64,000 nt of DNA from an uncultured Erysipelotrichaceae bacterium (GTDB lineage: Bacteria > Bacillota_I > Bacilli_A > Erysipelotrichales > Erysipelotrichaceae): assembly GCA_946537255.1 (NCBI GenBank), contig CAMNFS010000003.1, forward strand, positions 1 through 64,000. The letters run 5' to 3'. The notes beneath the pieces were generated by a model. It was not told the origin of the DNA. It did no database searches and was given only the letters and a program-made list of their open reading frames with translations. Position 1 is the first letter of the stretch. Every line of letters starts with the position of its first letter. Shown in pieces: positions 907-9,297 of this stretch. Position numbers and translations under genes: made by a program.

Positions 907-1962
907 ATGAAGGTACTGCTTTATTTTGAAAGTGAAAGTCTGATCAAGACCTCCGGCATCGGCCGGGCCTTTGAGCATCAGAAACAGGCCCTGACCTCGG
1001 CGGGTGTAGAGTACACCACCGACCCATGGGATGATGATTATGATATTCTTCATATCAATACCGTTTATCTGAACAGCGAGGCGATCATTGCCCATGCCAG
1101 AAAGCTTGGCAAGAAAGTCATTTATCATGCCCACAGCACCGAGGAGGATTTCCGCAACAGTTTTGTCTTTTCGAACATCATGAGTCCGATTGTGCGACGG
1201 ACCCTGATCAATCTGTATTCCAGGGCGGATGCGATTATCACTCCGACCCCATATTCCCGATCGCTGATCCGGAACTATGGAATTGATCTTCCGATCTATC
1301 CCGTATCCAACGGCATTGAACTGCCGCTTTATGCTGAGAATGAGGAAAAGCAGAAATCCTTCCGCCGGTACTTTCATCTCAATGACAGCACCCGGATTGT
1401 GCTTGGGGTCGGCCTGCCGTTTGAGAGAAAGGGGATCCTGGATTTTATCAAGGTCGCGGAAGCGATGCCGGAGTATCAGTTCATCTGGTTCGGAGAGCTG
1501 AATCCGCTCGCGGTTCCCGCCAAAATCAATGAAGCGATTGAACACCATCCGGAAAACTGCCGGTTTCCCGGCTATGTGAAGGGACCGATTATTCAGGGTG
1601 CCTATCAGGCCGCGGATCTGTTCTTTTTCCCGTCCTATGAGGAGACGGAAGGCATAGTTGTTCTGGAAGCGCTGGCCAGTCACCAGCAGGTTGTGGTGCG
1701 GGATATCGGTGTTTTCAAGTCCTGGCTGAAAAACGGCATCTCCTGCTACAAAGGTTCTTCCAACAGTGAGTTTATCCAGCTGATCCGCGACTGCATGGAA
1801 AAGCGGATTCCATCCACTGTTGAAAAAGGCTATGAAGTCGCATGTACACGATCGATAGAGCGGGTCGGAAAACAGCTTCGGGCGGTTTATGAAGCCGTCT
1901 GTGACGGCAGAATTCTGAAGGATGAGGAACTTGAATCGGTTCAGGAAGGTACGGACTGCTGA
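907..1962 (+). CDS. GT4 glycosyltransferase, CpoA-like glycolipid enzyme
   Basis: 351-aa GT-B fold glycosyltransferase of family GT4. The N-terminal SGIGRAFEHQKQAL, the DYDILHINTVY segment, the GKKVIYHAHSTEEDFRNSF stretch and PVSNGIELP resemble the streptococcal CpoA-type enzymes that add a second sugar to monoglycosyl-diacylglycerol. The C-terminal donor-binding half carries PSYEETEGIVVLEALA, the usual E-x7-E region. It probably works at the inner face of the membrane with the GT4 domain encoded at 4282, giving a mono- and then a diglycosyl-diacylglycerol. The donor sugar cannot be read from sequence. There is no Shine-Dalgarno before the ATG, and a -10 element ends six bases upstream. The assignment to GT4 is firm; the glycolipid role is by family resemblance and neighbours. 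Confidence 0.8.
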   Translation: MKVLLYFESESLIKTSGIGRAFEHQKQALTSAGVEYTTDPWDDDYDILHINTVYLNSEAIIAHARKLGKKVIYHAHSTEEDFRNSFVFSNIMSPIVRRTLINLYSRADAIITPTPYSRSLIRNYGIDLPIYPVSNGIELPLYAENEEKQKSFRRYFHLNDSTRIVLGVGLPFERKGILDFIKVAEAMPEYQFIWFGELNPLAVPAKINEAIEHHPENCRFPGYVKGPIIQGAYQAADLFFFPSYEETEGIVVLEALASHQQVVVRDIGVFKSWLKNGISCYKGSSNSEFIQLIRDCMEKRIPSTVEKGYEVACTRSIERVGKQLRAVYEAVCDGRILKDEELESVQEGTDC

Positions 1963-2054
1963 AGTCCCTCTTTCAGAAGTCCGTTTTCCAAGGATTCAGT
2001 ATCAAATTGCCGGGAATCATGCATGCAGGAGAAAAGGAAAAAAGGGAGGATCTG

Positions 2055-3071
2055 ATGAATCAGAAAAACAGATTCCGTAAAGGAATTACGTTCATCCTGT
2101 CAGGACTGCTGGCTGTTACTACAAATGCCGGCTGCCTCAGCAGGAAATCATCCGATGGATCAGCGGGTTCTTCATTCCGAAGAGACTGGTCTCTTGCCAT
2201 GAAGATGCCGGATGAAAAACAGCTTGCGGAAGCGGGCCGTTTTCGTTCTCCATACATCGCTTTTTTCCCTCAGTATGAAGAAAGCCTCTTTACTGCGGTT
2301 TCCATGGATTTCCGGATGAGTCACGATCCTGCCGGAACCTATATCTGTCCGATTGTATGGAGCCTGAATACGGAAGGAATGCATCCATCCTATAAAGAGA
2401 TCAGAACTGACTATGGGCAGGAACTGTCCGGGTACTTTGGATTTCAGGTTCTTGACGACGGCACAAAGGCGGTGATCATGACGCTCTGGAATGCTTTCTG
2501 TGAAGATTATGAAGGAAATGTTTCCATGATCAAGGCTAAGGTTCTGTATCCGGAAGGAAGGGAAGGGAAGGAACTGACAGACACCGGGGAAGGAAGCTTT
2601 GTGCAGTGCATCTATCCCTATGACTGGCAGACTGATACGGATTACCGGTTTCTTCTGGAACAAAGCACAGGGGAATCCGGAACCGAACTCTATAACCTCA
2701 CTCTCTTGAATATCGAGGAGAATGAAAAGATCCGGCTTTTCTGTTTTGACAGCGGACTTGAACAGGTCTGCATTCAGAGTGTCTGCGGCTTTGTGGAAAA
2801 CTTTGAACCCCGCTTTGCGTCCTGGCCCCGTTCCCTGGAATTCTGGAACGCAAAAGCAAGAGAGAAAGACAGCGGGCAGTGGCGGAATGCGGAAGCTGTG
2901 AATTATACCGTCAATGCCAGTGAGGGAGATCTTGAATATGAGGGCAGCTGGAACTATGGATCAGATGAACATGGCTGCTGGATCATCACCTCCGGAACGG
3001 AAGGACTGTGCACGCCTCCGGACAATACCGGTCCTTATCCGATTCCTTCCTCTGTGGATCAGCCATCCTGA
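2055..3071 (+). CDS. Exported protein, possible lipoprotein, unknown function
   Basis: 338 aa from the ATG preceded by GGGAGGATCTG, an excellent ribosome site; an upstream in-frame ATG at 2007 has none. The N-terminus has basic residues, a hydrophobic stretch (ITFILSGLLAVTTNAGC) and then a Ser/Gly-rich linker, so it is exported. The Cys could be a lipidation site, but Asn at -3 makes the lipobox imperfect. The mature part contains GYFGFQVLDDGTKAVIMTLW, which reminds me of DUF3472-type proteins; I cannot verify this. It lies between two glycolipid-type genes in the same orientation, so an envelope function is plausible. No catalytic motif is recognised. Confidence 0.6.
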   Translation: MNQKNRFRKGITFILSGLLAVTTNAGCLSRKSSDGSAGSSFRRDWSLAMKMPDEKQLAEAGRFRSPYIAFFPQYEESLFTAVSMDFRMSHDPAGTYICPIVWSLNTEGMHPSYKEIRTDYGQELSGYFGFQVLDDGTKAVIMTLWNAFCEDYEGNVSMIKAKVLYPEGREGKELTDTGEGSFVQCIYPYDWQTDTDYRFLLEQSTGESGTELYNLTLLNIEENEKIRLFCFDSGLEQVCIQSVCGFVENFEPRFASWPRSLEFWNAKAREKDSGQWRNAEAVNYTVNASEGDLEYEGSWNYGSDEHGCWIITSGTEGLCTPPDNTGPYPIPSSVDQPS

Positions 3072-4281: not shown

Positions 4282-6279
4282 ATGAGAATAGGATTGTTCA
4301 GCGATACATTTCCGCCGGATCTCAATGGCGTAGCCAACAGTACGAATATTCTGTTTCAGGAACTGCTGAAGCACGGACATCAGGCGTATGTCGTATGTAC
4401 CCGGGCAGGAACCGGATGGGCGGAATGGAATGAAGACCATACGATCCTGCGGCTTGCCGGAGTGACGATCAAGCGCCTCTATGGATATGCGGTGACAACT
4501 CCGATTCATGTAAACGCGCTGAATGAAGTGAGGGCACTGAATCTCGATGTGATTCACTGTCAGACAGAATTCGGAGTGGGAATGTTCGCTCGAATCTGTT
4601 CCAAGCAGCTGAATATTCCGCTTGTGAGTACCTATCACACTTCCTATGAAGACTATACGCATTATCTGAATCTTCTGAACTCTCCGCGGATTGACAGTCA
4701 GCTTCAGAAGGGGGTGGCCTGGCTTTCGAGACTCTATGGAGACTCGTCTGTTGAAGTCATCGCACCCAGCCAGAAGACGAAGGAACTTCTGGAACGATAT
4801 CACATCCGCAGCGATATTCATGTTGTTCCGACCGGTCTTGATCTTGAACGGTTTTCACCATCCCTTCAGAATCCTGCCCGCACCGCGGAAATCCGCCGCC
4901 AGTTTGGAATATCAGAAACAGAGCGGCTGGTGCTTTACCTTGGCAGAATTGCTGAGGAAAAATCCCTGGATCTAGTGATTGACGGCTTTGAGAAGGCGCG
5001 GAACAACGGTACGGATATCAGACTTCTGATTGTCGGAGGAGGACCGGATCTTGACCGTCTGAAGCGGTACACGAAACAGAAAAACATGGAAGGCGTGATT
5101 CACTATGCCGGGCCAAGGCCGGCGGATGAAGTTGCGGATTATTACCGAAGCGCGGATTTCTTTGTCAGCGCCTCGCTTTCAGAAACCCAGGGCATGACAT
5201 TTGATGAAGCGATGGCCAGCGGTCTGCCGCTTCTTTCCCGCCGTGATGAGGTTCTGGAAAACCTTCTGATTGACGGCCGGACCGGATGGTATTTTACGGA
5301 CGCGGAGGATCTTGCGGAAAAACTCCGGTGGGTGAAGGAAATGTCCGAAGACGCACTGAATCAGATGAAGGAAAATGCCCTGAAGCAGATTCAGCCGCTG
5401 AGCAGCGAGCAGTTCTACCAGAACGCCATGGCAGTATATGAGAAAGCCATCCAGACCTACAGTGAACTGATGATGATTGAGGATGTTCAGGTCAAGGATG
5501 ATATTGTTCAGGTATTCCTGGCGGATATGCAGGGACGCTCGAAGGAAGATGTGCGGATTCTCGTTACGATGGATGATTATTTCAATGAGGGACTGCGCAA
5601 GGGCATGCGGATCAGCGGCTCGATGATTGAGACGCTGAAAAAACGGGAAGAAGCTGTCCGGGCCTGGCAGTCCTGCATGCGCAAGGTGGCTGTAAGGGAT
5701 CGGACCCGGAAGGAGATGTATGACTGGCTCACCCGGAATACCTCCTGTGATATTGAAACCATCAACGATATTGTGGATCGGCTGGAGGAAAAGGGCTACA
5801 TTGATGATGAGCGCTACTGCTCAGAAAACATTTCCAGGATGAAGCTGAAGCTTCTCGGTGAGGAGCGCATTGTCCGCAGCCTGCAGAAAAAAGGGATTCC
5901 GGCGGATATGGTCCGCAGACATCTCGATGGCGGAAGCGATGATGAGTTTGAAACCGCCGCCGCTTATGCAAAAAAAGCCGCCGCATCCATTCATGACCGC
6001 AGCGTAATGATGAAAAAACGCCGTCTGAAGGAAAAGATGATGATGCATGGATTTGGTTCGGATCTTTCGGATCAGGTGATTGCGTCCATGAATTTTGAAG
6101 AGGATGAGATGCAGGAAATGGACAGCCTGCGGCGGTGTGCGGTAAAAGCAAAGAAGCATTATGAGAAAAAGTATGACGGGACAAAACTCCGCAACACGGT
6201 ATTCCGCTACTGCAGCGCACAGGGCTACCGGCCGGAAAACATCTATGTCATACTGGATGAAATGGAGTGGAACGGATGA
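4282..6279 (+). CDS. Diacylglycerol-type GT4 glycosyltransferase fused to RecX
   Basis: 665 aa with two complete domains in one frame. Residues 1 to ~375 form a GT4 glycosyltransferase: MRIGLFSDTFPPDLNGVANS at the N-terminus, VPTGLDLERF, YLGRIAEEKSLD, and SLSETQGMTFDEAMASGLP as the E-x7-E donor site. This start is typical of 1,2-diacylglycerol 3-glucosyltransferases. Residues ~395-665 match a full RecX: a beta-rich N-terminal segment ending in LRKGMRISGSMIETL, then the three-helix repeats RTRKEMYDWLTRN, VDRLEEKGYIDDERYC and RIVRSLQKKGIPADMV. RecX binds RecA filaments and limits recombination. There is no stop or frameshift between the halves. The ATG at 4282 is preferred over the TTG at 4276. 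The gene overlaps yhaM by 4 nt. Confidence 0.85.
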   Translation: MRIGLFSDTFPPDLNGVANSTNILFQELLKHGHQAYVVCTRAGTGWAEWNEDHTILRLAGVTIKRLYGYAVTTPIHVNALNEVRALNLDVIHCQTEFGVGMFARICSKQLNIPLVSTYHTSYEDYTHYLNLLNSPRIDSQLQKGVAWLSRLYGDSSVEVIAPSQKTKELLERYHIRSDIHVVPTGLDLERFSPSLQNPARTAEIRRQFGISETERLVLYLGRIAEEKSLDLVIDGFEKARNNGTDIRLLIVGGGPDLDRLKRYTKQKNMEGVIHYAGPRPADEVADYYRSADFFVSASLSETQGMTFDEAMASGLPLLSRRDEVLENLLIDGRTGWYFTDAEDLAEKLRWVKEMSEDALNQMKENALKQIQPLSSEQFYQNAMAVYEKAIQTYSELMMIEDVQVKDDIVQVFLADMQGRSKEDVRILVTMDDYFNEGLRKGMRISGSMIETLKKREEAVRAWQSCMRKVAVRDRTRKEMYDWLTRNTSCDIETINDIVDRLEEKGYIDDERYCSENISRMKLKLLGEERIVRSLQKKGIPADMVRRHLDGGSDDEFETAAAYAKKAAASIHDRSVMMKKRRLKEKMMMHGFGSDLSDQVIASMNFEEDEMQEMDSLRRCAVKAKKHYEKKYDGTKLRNTVFRYCSAQGYRPENIYVILDEMEWNG

Positions 6280-7211
6280 CGAAGATCAGAGATTTCAAGG
6301 AAAAAGAACGGTATAAGATGAATCTTCTGGTCAAGAGCGTGGTTAAGGGCGTGACACAGAAGGGCGCACCTTACCTGAATCTTGTCCTGCAGGATAATAC
6401 CGGAACCATAGATGGAAAATTCTGGGATGTTTCACCGGAAGACATGGCGGCCGCCAAGGCAGGGCATGTGCAGTTTCTGGCTTTTGAAGTGCTGGATTAC
6501 AATAACGCGCTTCAGCTGCGGGTCAACCGGATTACGGATCTGGATCAGGATCTGATCGATCTTTCCGAATATGTCATGGCTTCTCCTGTGGAAATCGGTG
6601 AGCTGAAAGCCAGAATCGGAGGATATATCACCTCTTTGACCAACCCGGTGCTCAGTGCGCTTGTGAAGGGAATGTTTGAGCGGGTCGGAAAGGCATTCTA
6701 TGATTATCCGGCCGCATCCAGAATCCATCACAGTTATCTGGGGGGACTTGCGGAACATACCCTGGGCATGGCAGACCTTGCGGAAACCATGGCTGGCCAG
6801 TACGCGATTCTGAACCGGGATCTTCTGATCGCGGGTGTGCTGGTGCACGATCTTGGCAAGACTGCTGAACTGGGCGGACTTGTTTCAAATGAATATACCC
6901 TGGAAGGAAAGCTGATCGGTCATATTTCGATCTGTCATGGCTGGCTGATGGAAACAGCGGCCGCTCTGAATCTTACGGATCGCGAGGAGACCCTTCTTCT
7001 GAGGCATATGATTCTTTCCCATCATGGCAAACATGAATTCGGATCTCCGGTTCTTCCGGAAATTCCTGAAGCGGAGGCACTGAATCTGATTGACAACATG
7101 GATGCCCGCATGAACACCCTGAAAAAGGCAATGGAGACAGTCAAGCCCGGTCAGTGGACCGGAAAACTGTTTTCGATGGATAACCGGCAGTTTTACAAGG
7201 CGGATGAGTGA
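6276..7211 (+). CDS. yhaM: 3'-5' exoribonuclease YhaM
   Basis: 311 aa. An N-terminal OB-fold nucleic-acid-binding region (KGAPYLNLVLQDNTGTIDGK, residues ~25-100) is followed by an HD phosphohydrolase domain with RIHHSYLGGLAEHTLGM, VLVHDLGKTAEL and HMILSHHGKHEFGSP, whose histidines and aspartates bind the catalytic metals. This is the YhaM architecture; the family trims RNA and can also attack single-stranded DNA from the 3' end. The ATG overlaps the preceding stop (ATGA), indicating translational coupling to the GT-RecX gene. Length and motif order are normal. Confidence 0.9.
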   Translation: MTKIRDFKEKERYKMNLLVKSVVKGVTQKGAPYLNLVLQDNTGTIDGKFWDVSPEDMAAAKAGHVQFLAFEVLDYNNALQLRVNRITDLDQDLIDLSEYVMASPVEIGELKARIGGYITSLTNPVLSALVKGMFERVGKAFYDYPAASRIHHSYLGGLAEHTLGMADLAETMAGQYAILNRDLLIAGVLVHDLGKTAELGGLVSNEYTLEGKLIGHISICHGWLMETAAALNLTDREETLLLRHMILSHHGKHEFGSPVLPEIPEAEALNLIDNMDARMNTLKKAMETVKPGQWTGKLFSMDNRQFYKADE

Positions 7212-7213
7212 TT

Positions 7214-8533
7214 ATGAGTATTCGTCTTTTCATGGTACAGAAACTTCATGAGATCCTGTCAAAAGCCGGACGCGGAGGTTCATTGCCCGGTACTTTGGCG
7301 TTGAAAATGGATCCGGAATTTCTTTCCCGTTTCCATATGCCGGACAAGGTCATTCTTGTGACCGGAACCAATGGAAAGACTACGACGATGAATCTGATTG
7401 CAGAGGCTCTGAAGGCAAACGGTCTTTCCGTTCTCTGCAACCATCGCGGGGATAATCTGAACGTCGGTCTTGCGACCGCTTTGGCGGCCGGATCGAATGA
7501 CCGGTATGAAATACAGGCAGACGCGGTTGTGCTGGAAGTGGATGAACTGACGCTTTACCGGGAATTTCATCGGCTTCATCCTACCGCTCTGGTGATCACG
7601 AATTTTTTCCGCGATCAGCTGGACCGCGCCGGAGAACTGGAGACGATCATCCGGAAGATCATGGAACTGACGGAGAACTTTGAGGGTGATCTGATTCTGA
7701 ACGGCGATGACCCCAATTCTCTGCGGCTGGCGGATCATGCGAAAAAAGCCCGGGTACACTGCTTCTCCATGGCTGAAACCATCAAATCACGTAACATCAG
7801 TGATGAGGCCAGTGAAGGGAAGTTCTGTCCGCGGTGCGGCCGTCCCCTGATCTATGATTTCTATCAGTATTCCCATATCGGACGGTTTCGCTGTCCGTAT
7901 GATGGATTTGGAAAAATCCGGCCGGATCTGTATGTCGACAGAGTGAATTTTGACAATGAGACTTTCCGGGCAGACGGATTTACCTATCATTCCTTTATCA
8001 ACTCCGGCTATGCGATTTATAACTGTGCCGCCGTCCTCTGTCTGCTCAAGGCTTTGGGTCTGAATCTGCCGGCGGCCAATGAGGTATTCAAAACCTATAA
8101 GCTGAAAGAGGGCAGGAATGAGGTATTCAATCTCTCATCACCCTGCACCATCAATCTTGTCAAAAATCCCACCGGTGCCAATGAGGTGATGAAATACATC
8201 ACCGCCCAGCCGATGGATAAGAACATCTGTATTTTTCTCAACGACAATGACCTGGACGGAACCGATATCTCCTGGATCTGGGACGCTCATTTTGAACGGC
8301 TCAATGATCCGCTGATTCATACGATTGTCTGTTCCGGACAAAGGGCCTATGATATGGCCTTGCGTCTGAAATACGAAGGGCTGGAGGACAGAATCCGGGT
8401 GATTGAGGATTCACGCGACGCGATTGCCTGGCTGGATGATCAGAAGATGGAAAGCTTCGTGATCGCGACTTATACGGCGCTTCATCCAACCCGGGGGATT
8501 CTGAGCCGTCAGGCAAGGAGGCACCGCTCATGA
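7214..8533 (+). CDS. murT: Lipid II isoglutaminyl synthase, MurT subunit
   Basis: 439 aa Mur-ligase-like protein. The P-loop VTGTNGKTTTMNLIAEAL is near residue 50, the central domain follows, and the DUF1727 C-terminal domain carries NDNDLDGTDISWIWDAHFE, which includes the conserved catalytic Asp region. With GatD it amidates the D-Glu of the lipid II stem peptide to D-isoglutamine, using ATP and glutamine. The family zinc ribbon is present as CPRC...CPYD, so the fourth Cys is replaced by Asp (see findings). The ATG at 7214 fits known MurT N-termini better than the GTG at 7208. It overlaps gatD by 4 nt. Confidence 0.93.
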   Translation: MSIRLFMVQKLHEILSKAGRGGSLPGTLALKMDPEFLSRFHMPDKVILVTGTNGKTTTMNLIAEALKANGLSVLCNHRGDNLNVGLATALAAGSNDRYEIQADAVVLEVDELTLYREFHRLHPTALVITNFFRDQLDRAGELETIIRKIMELTENFEGDLILNGDDPNSLRLADHAKKARVHCFSMAETIKSRNISDEASEGKFCPRCGRPLIYDFYQYSHIGRFRCPYDGFGKIRPDLYVDRVNFDNETFRADGFTYHSFINSGYAIYNCAAVLCLLKALGLNLPAANEVFKTYKLKEGRNEVFNLSSPCTINLVKNPTGANEVMKYITAQPMDKNICIFLNDNDLDGTDISWIWDAHFERLNDPLIHTIVCSGQRAYDMALRLKYEGLEDRIRVIEDSRDAIAWLDDQKMESFVIATYTALHPTRGILSRQARRHRS

Positions 8534-9297
8534 AACTGAAAGTGCTCTGGATGTACCATGACCTCATGGACCTTTATGGAGACAAGGGAAATATACAGGT
8601 GCTGAAGACACGATGTGAAAAGCGCGGCATCGATCTGACTGTCGATACCTGCACCATCGGCGAGATCCGTACCATATCCGATTATGATATCTTTTTTCTC
8701 GGCGGCGGCGCAGACCGGGAACAGAATCTGATCTATGAGGATCTTCTCTTACGCAGAGAGGGGATAGAAGAAGCCATGAAGTCCGGTACTGCTTTTCTTC
8801 TGATCTGCGGTGGCTACCAGATGTTTGGAAAGTATTACCGGGATCAGGACGGAAACACCGTTCCGTGCCTTTCCTTTTTTGATTACTATACCGTTGCCAG
8901 TGACCGGGATCATCGCTGTATCGGAAATATTGCCGTCGAAGTGAACATGGATGGGGAACACTTTCTCGCAGTGGGCTTTGAAAACCATGGCGGGCAGACG
9001 GAGAATGTATCATTTCCGTTTGGCAGTGTCAGATACGGGCATGGAAATACCTTCAATGGAAAATTCGAGGGGTTTCTGAACGATCAGGTGCTCGCGACCT
9101 ACATGCATGGTCCTCTGCTGCCGAAGAATCCGATGATTGCCGACCTGGTTGTGAGACGCGGCCTGCGGCGGAACTATGGCGATGTTTCACTTGATCCGCT
9201 GGATGATACCCTGGAAACAAAGGCCAGGACAGTCATGCTGGAACGGCTTGGCGTCAGTCTGGAAAACAGACAGGAAGCTGAAAAACAATCTGACTGA
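8530..9297 (+). CDS. gatD: Lipid II isoglutaminyl synthase, GatD glutaminase subunit
   Basis: 255 aa class-I glutamine amidotransferase-like protein of the CobB/CobQ type. The nucleophile region is LLICGGYQMFGKYY (Cys near residue 95) and the catalytic His lies in TYMHGPLLPKNP near residue 190. It releases ammonia from glutamine for MurT. The ATGA overlap with murT fits equal production of the two subunits. This gene ends the block that starts at 907 and is followed by a likely terminator. Confidence 0.93.
   Translation: MKLKVLWMYHDLMDLYGDKGNIQVLKTRCEKRGIDLTVDTCTIGEIRTISDYDIFFLGGGADREQNLIYEDLLLRREGIEEAMKSGTAFLLICGGYQMFGKYYRDQDGNTVPCLSFFDYYTVASDRDHRCIGNIAVEVNMDGEHFLAVGFENHGGQTENVSFPFGSVRYGHGNTFNGKFEGFLNDQVLATYMHGPLLPKNPMIADLVVRRGLRRNYGDVSLDPLDDTLETKARTVMLERLGVSLENRQEAEKQSD

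Follow-up and report, generated by a model that had tools for sequence, protein, structure and literature searches.

An ancient, order-wide fusion of a GT4 lipid-type glycosyltransferase to a full-length RecX in the Erysipelotrichales

In an uncultured Erysipelotrichaceae bacterium, a GT4 lipid-type glycosyltransferase (GT) and a full-length RecX are encoded by one gene, located at 4282-6279 on the forward strand of the window, by which we mean the whole 64,000-nucleotide stretch of DNA that was analysed. The fusion is real, and it is ancient and order-wide in the Erysipelotrichales. It is likely that each half keeps its usual role, the two being independent functions on one chain, and the analysis favours two ordinary proteins that an old frameshift brought together over a new pathway between repair and the membrane. 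In an order that holds pathogens (Erysipelothrix) and common gut commensals, the only RecX appears to be the tail of a lipid glycosyltransferase, and the knockout or the annotation of one function affects both. Each part is known, and what appears to be undescribed is the architecture, with its spread through the order and its history; we found no report of a RecX-glycosyltransferase fusion in the open-access literature, most subscription papers lying outside that coverage.

Domain structure of the fused gene

The gene is a single continuous open reading frame of 665 codons, with its methionine codon at 4282 and a TGA stop at 6277-6279. The reading frame, the Pfam and NCBIfam matches and the predicted structure together define a GT4 glycosyltransferase at residues 1-392 followed by a RecX at residues 397-662. 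The GT4 domain (4282-5457, forward strand) is delimited by the Pfam and NCBIfam matches and by residue conservation, with Glyco_transf_4 at residues 15-190 (E 1e-25, 91 bits against a cut-off of 28.5) and Glycos_transf_1 at residues 202-368 (E 2e-31, 109 bits against a cut-off of 26.4). The original prediction, made from the sequence, had placed the glycosyltransferase hallmarks at residues 1-375; its GT4 identity was right, but the boundary has to be moved, the glycosyltransferase part extending to about residues 392-395. The junction, at about residues 375-410 (5404-5511, forward strand), was defined from the structure, the alignment and Shine-Dalgarno (SD) statistics.

The RecX domain (about residues 397-662; 5470-6267, forward strand) was identified with the NCBIfam RecX model NF010733 (E 1.5e-33), which covers residues 397-662 with its positions 5-264 of 267 and therefore aligns at full length. 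In searches with sequence profiles, the best PDB matches of this half were the RecX entries 3e3v and 3d5l. This bears out the full-length RecX that had been predicted at residues 395-665, and the continuous frame likewise agrees with the claim that no stop or frameshift separates the halves. The score of the RecX half, 116.6 bits, is below the NF010733 equivalog cut-off of 240 bits; because none of the 167 genomes of the class that were searched (0/167) passes this cut-off either, the low score mainly reflects the strictness of the model. Among the individual repeats, RecX_HTH1 (residues 461-501) and RecX_HTH3 (residues 553-600) score above their Pfam cut-offs, and RecX_HTH2 (residues 508-545) is below its own (17.8 against 26 bits) and lies at the position expected for a RecX. 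Used as the sole query, PF02631 gave no match in the genome of the window; this is because RecX_HTH2 is the weakest repeat in the fusion, and a full-length model is consequently needed. Compared with the long RecX proteins of the Bacillota (NF010733; B. subtilis RecX/YfhG, 264 aa; 3e3v, 3d5l), residues 397-662 match over the full length and share the N-terminal beta segment and the three-helix repeats. The RecX half differs from them in sitting behind a glycosyltransferase, without a free N-terminus, and in scoring below the 240-bit cut-off, as it does in all genomes of the order and the class that were searched.

A search for a stand-alone recX elsewhere in the genome of the window (2.44 Mb, completeness 100%) found none with profiles up to E 10. 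RecA is encoded in the same genome, on another contig (463 bits).

The glycosyltransferase half and its neighbours

The best glycosyltransferase family was alpha-monoglucosyldiacylglycerol synthase (Mgs, NF049988), matched at full length by residues 1-392 (E 2e-73). The score of 248 bits misses the equivalog cut-off of 400, and the substrate is thus not certified. The EX7E motif (E301/E309) is invariant across 76 fused homologues, as are H119, R222 and K227, and Foldseek matches to MshA, BshA, PimA and PimB' (E 1e-21 to 1e-13) correspond to a GT-B structure. The GT half therefore resembles Mgs and the GT4 lipid glycosyltransferases in its full-length match, its fold, its motif and its operon, which contains a second glycosyltransferase of the Dgs/IagA type and a flippase-like protein; it differs from them in its lower score and in its RecX C-terminus. 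Both the operon partners and the nearest family, although the match is below its equivalog cut-off, lead us to infer a diacylglycerol substrate, and the GT half probably starts membrane glycolipid synthesis in the Erysipelotrichales. An uncultured Lachnospiraceae (L117:4986-7151) carries a second C-terminal fusion of the same glycosyltransferase family, with a different partner, an aldo/keto reductase (PF00248, E 1e-60).

The fused gene stands within an operon-like row of envelope genes, in the order glycosyltransferase, DUF3472, flippase, fusion, yhaM, murT-gatD. The first gene (907-1962, forward strand) encodes a homologue of the processive diacylglycerol glycosyltransferases (IagA/BgsA/Dgs family; NF053513, 495 bits, above the cut-off of 460), the second glycosyltransferase of the glycolipid pathway. 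Between it and the flippase gene lies a gene for a DUF3472 protein whose N-terminus resembles that of a lipoprotein (..LLAVTTNAGC; 2007-3071). The flippase-like membrane protein (LPG_synthase_TM/TIGR00374; 3184-4248, forward strand; PF03706 E 2e-34, TIGR00374 above its cut-off) is encoded directly upstream of the glycosyltransferase, an arrangement conserved in fused and unfused loci. On the other side, the ATG of yhaM, a 3'-5' exoribonuclease gene (6276-7211, forward strand; NF010007, 320 bits, full length), overlaps at 6276 the TGA of the fusion at 6277 as ATGA, and profile matches identified murT and gatD (lipid II isoglutaminyl synthase; 7208-9297, forward strand), which are also found downstream in relatives. 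Many relatives have the flippase gene 5' and murT-gatD 3' of the fusion.

Distribution of the fusion

The fusion is conserved in two families, and the possibility, raised in the original prediction, that relatives share it is thereby upheld. RecX was found in 148 of the 152 sampled Erysipelotrichales genomes, and in 133 of these 148, closed chromosomes included, it lies in an open reading frame of at least 600 aa; two of the 15 genomes with a shorter frame are truncated by contig ends. Outside the order, within the same class, the RecX frame is at most 317 aa in every genome with a match (116/116), and the glycosyltransferase has its own frame of ~390-450 aa. All of the nearest genomes that were searched (60/60) match the fusion query, mostly over its full length. 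Named carriers are Bulleidia extructa, Lactimicrobium massiliense, Erysipelothrix sp. HDW6A, Amedibacillus dolichus, Holdemanella porci, Faecalicoccus acidiformans, Sharpea azabuensis, [Clostridium] spiroforme, Breznakia pachnodae and Traorella massiliensis. Judging from identical or near sequences, the genus of the window would be the one with close relatives of Bulleidia extructa and Lactimicrobium. Two near-complete Erysipelotrichales genomes (G079 and G096) gave no match to either the glycosyltransferase or RecX at the thresholds applied.

Origin from overlapping genes

In fourteen outgroup loci from uncultured Bacilli (L104-L106, L108, L109, L115, L119-L123, L126, L128 and L131) the glycosyltransferase gene overlaps a separate recX, and in nearly all of them a flippase gene precedes the pair. 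These flippase-GT-recX triplets encode the same two proteins in the same order and operon, but recX is a gene of its own with its own ribosome site. Its GTG start lies exactly 20 nt before the glycosyltransferase stop in 11 of the 14 loci, mostly with GGAGG or GAGG within the glycosyltransferase codons for E-V-Y or G-V-Y, and the SD energies are about -7 to -11 kcal/mol. The outgroup RecX frame is shifted relative to that of the glycosyltransferase, which ends at a conserved ..VYKRAI(K/R)xxW-stop, and the fused proteins continue through the aligned place into RecX. Given the shifted frames and this read-through, a one-base deletion, or an equivalent indel, near the glycosyltransferase stop would be the simplest route to the fusion. 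In the ancestor, an Mgs-like glycosyltransferase gene and recX would have been adjacent and overlapping in one operon, with the SD and GTG of recX inside the last glycosyltransferase codons; a small indel near the stop would then have merged both frames, and the RecX start, superfluous after the fusion, would have decayed. The glycosyltransferase tree and the RecX tree both set the order apart from the outgroups, which is compatible with a single fusion at the base of the order, in trees whose rooting was not formally tested and with the outlier L099 remaining outside. This is a well-resolved case of gene fusion from an overlapping pair, in which the unfused and the fused state, re-fission and the erosion of a partner are all visible.

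Independent or coupled functions

If the two halves work independently, as we think likely, the GT half would make, on the inner side of the membrane, the first sugar-lipid of the glycolipid/LTA-anchor pathway, and the RecX half would modulate RecA filaments. RecX dosage would now be tied to glycosyltransferase translation, and the chain would escape proteolytic cleavage. RecX would have to act as a ~76-kDa protein, with RecA regulation and glycolipid synthesis sharing a translation start, and the fusion is a natural test of whether RecX works while tied to a membrane enzyme.

A more far-reaching alternative, which we regard as unlikely, is that the glycosyltransferase anchors RecX at the membrane, or that the lipid or nucleotide-sugar state controls RecX, which would make RecA activity depend on the status of the envelope. 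The only RecX of the Erysipelotrichales would then be tethered in a fixed geometry to a membrane glycolipid synthase, and recombination or SOS control would be coupled, physically or metabolically, to envelope lipid synthesis. The retention of the fusion in ~90% of the genomes of the order speaks for it, as does the purifying selection acting on both halves, with low dN/dS in the glycosyltransferase (0.05-0.14) and in RecX (0.02-0.18) between close pairs with unsaturated dS. The junction is also short and confidently predicted: in the AlphaFold2 model (mean pLDDT 89.7) the last glycosyltransferase helix (residues 375-395) leads directly to the first RecX strand (residues 397-405), although with a pTM of 0.70 the relative placement of the halves is not fixed by the model. 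Moreover, the 76 homologues have no indels between residues 360 and 410, and this could mean that the halves are held in a fixed geometry, pointing to a joint function. However, three other indel-free runs in the same protein equal or exceed these 51 residues; a special rigidity of the junction was therefore rejected, and the run is no strong sign of coupling.

Against coupling, the fusion has been undone at least twice within the order. Four genomes (G011, G017, G198 and G207), forming one clade deep inside the genus, have the glycosyltransferase and recX separate again, with an ATGA overlap in G011 and G017 and a longer one in G198 and G207, and the two genes are also split in L098, an Erysipelothrix-like MAG. 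A topology with all fused proteins in one clade and the split forms outside was rejected (AU p 0.0005), so the splits in L031, L144 and L145 and in L098 are later fissions. RecX has also persisted without an active partner: it is found at the same locus without the glycosyltransferase in G163 and G169, alone and in another context in several genera (most of the sampled genomes of g19, g17 and g56), and behind a dead glycosyltransferase remnant in G119 and G015. From the fissions and from this persistence, the fusion is stable but not indispensable. In addition, the outgroup genes already form one operon, and joint expression is therefore older than the fusion. Finally, B. subtilis RecX-YFP is dispersed in the cell and forms nucleoid foci after DNA damage, with foci at the pole in competence only (PMC3527212); RecX there acts at the nucleoid, and a role at the membrane would consequently be new. 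Nothing pertinent on RecA and the membrane turned up in the open-access literature.

One product or two

Internal initiation, giving two products, had been among the proposals of the original prediction. The window gene does have two methionine codons at the junction (5470 and 5473), and a few homologues show a decent SD by chance (L009, -9.1; L103, -8.1). Across 87 fused genes, however, junction starts reach -5 kcal/mol or better no more often than in-frame control starts (8% versus 12%), in a test that covers SD-led initiation only. The best junction start per gene has a median SD pairing of -1.6, versus -8.0 at real gene starts, and the median for unfused recX starts is -7.0. Fifteen of the 87 genes have no in-frame start codon (ATG, GTG or TTG) anywhere at the junction, and in the Coprobacillaceae such a codon is mostly missing. 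An internal ribosome site for RecX was rejected on these SD statistics.

Two lineages with an eroded glycosyltransferase provide a second, independent line of evidence. G119 (L132:1764-2918, reverse strand, closed genome) and G015 (L034:1440-2822) have frames of 385 aa and 461 aa, respectively, in which an N-terminal glycosyltransferase remnant of about 100-200 aa shares its frame with an intact RecX; the catalytic half is lost and the first residues (MRIGFLTNAYP.., MRIGLFSN..) are kept, which is what a dependence of RecX on the glycosyltransferase start would predict. From the chance-level junction starts and these in-frame remnants, a single ~76-kDa protein appears to be the best reading of the product, and the proposal of internal initiation is not supported. 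The broader possibility that RecX is additionally made alone, either in this way or by cleavage at the junction, we consider quite improbable. G015 and G119 also represent a natural loss-of-glycosyltransferase series within the genus.

Integrity of the RecX half and of the reading frame

RecX diverges faster than the glycosyltransferase (mean distance 0.70 versus 0.53), and it is very divergent in some small genomes (G061 and G109), which would suit a decaying passenger without RecA function. As a general explanation this is very improbable, given the low RecX dN/dS in close pairs, the intact RecX retained where the glycosyltransferase is lost and the recA in the genome. In three genomes of 1.3-1.5 Mb (G061, L148; G109, L147; G157, L146) the RecX halves are very divergent or shortened, and RecX may be decaying there.

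A sequencing or assembly artefact that joined two genes has a negligible probability and was rejected: nothing supports it, and the architecture recurs in well over 100 independent genomes, named strains and closed genomes included. Dozens of independent assemblies carry the fused frame free of stops, and several of these consist of a single contig (G037, G041, G050, G066, G102, G107, G122 and G139). Individual genes are interrupted. L048 (G024) has an in-frame TAA at fusion codon 446, between the N-terminal strands and the helices of RecX, and L143 (G095, closed genome) has a frame break within the glycosyltransferase part; these interruptions are either sequencing errors or young pseudogenes.
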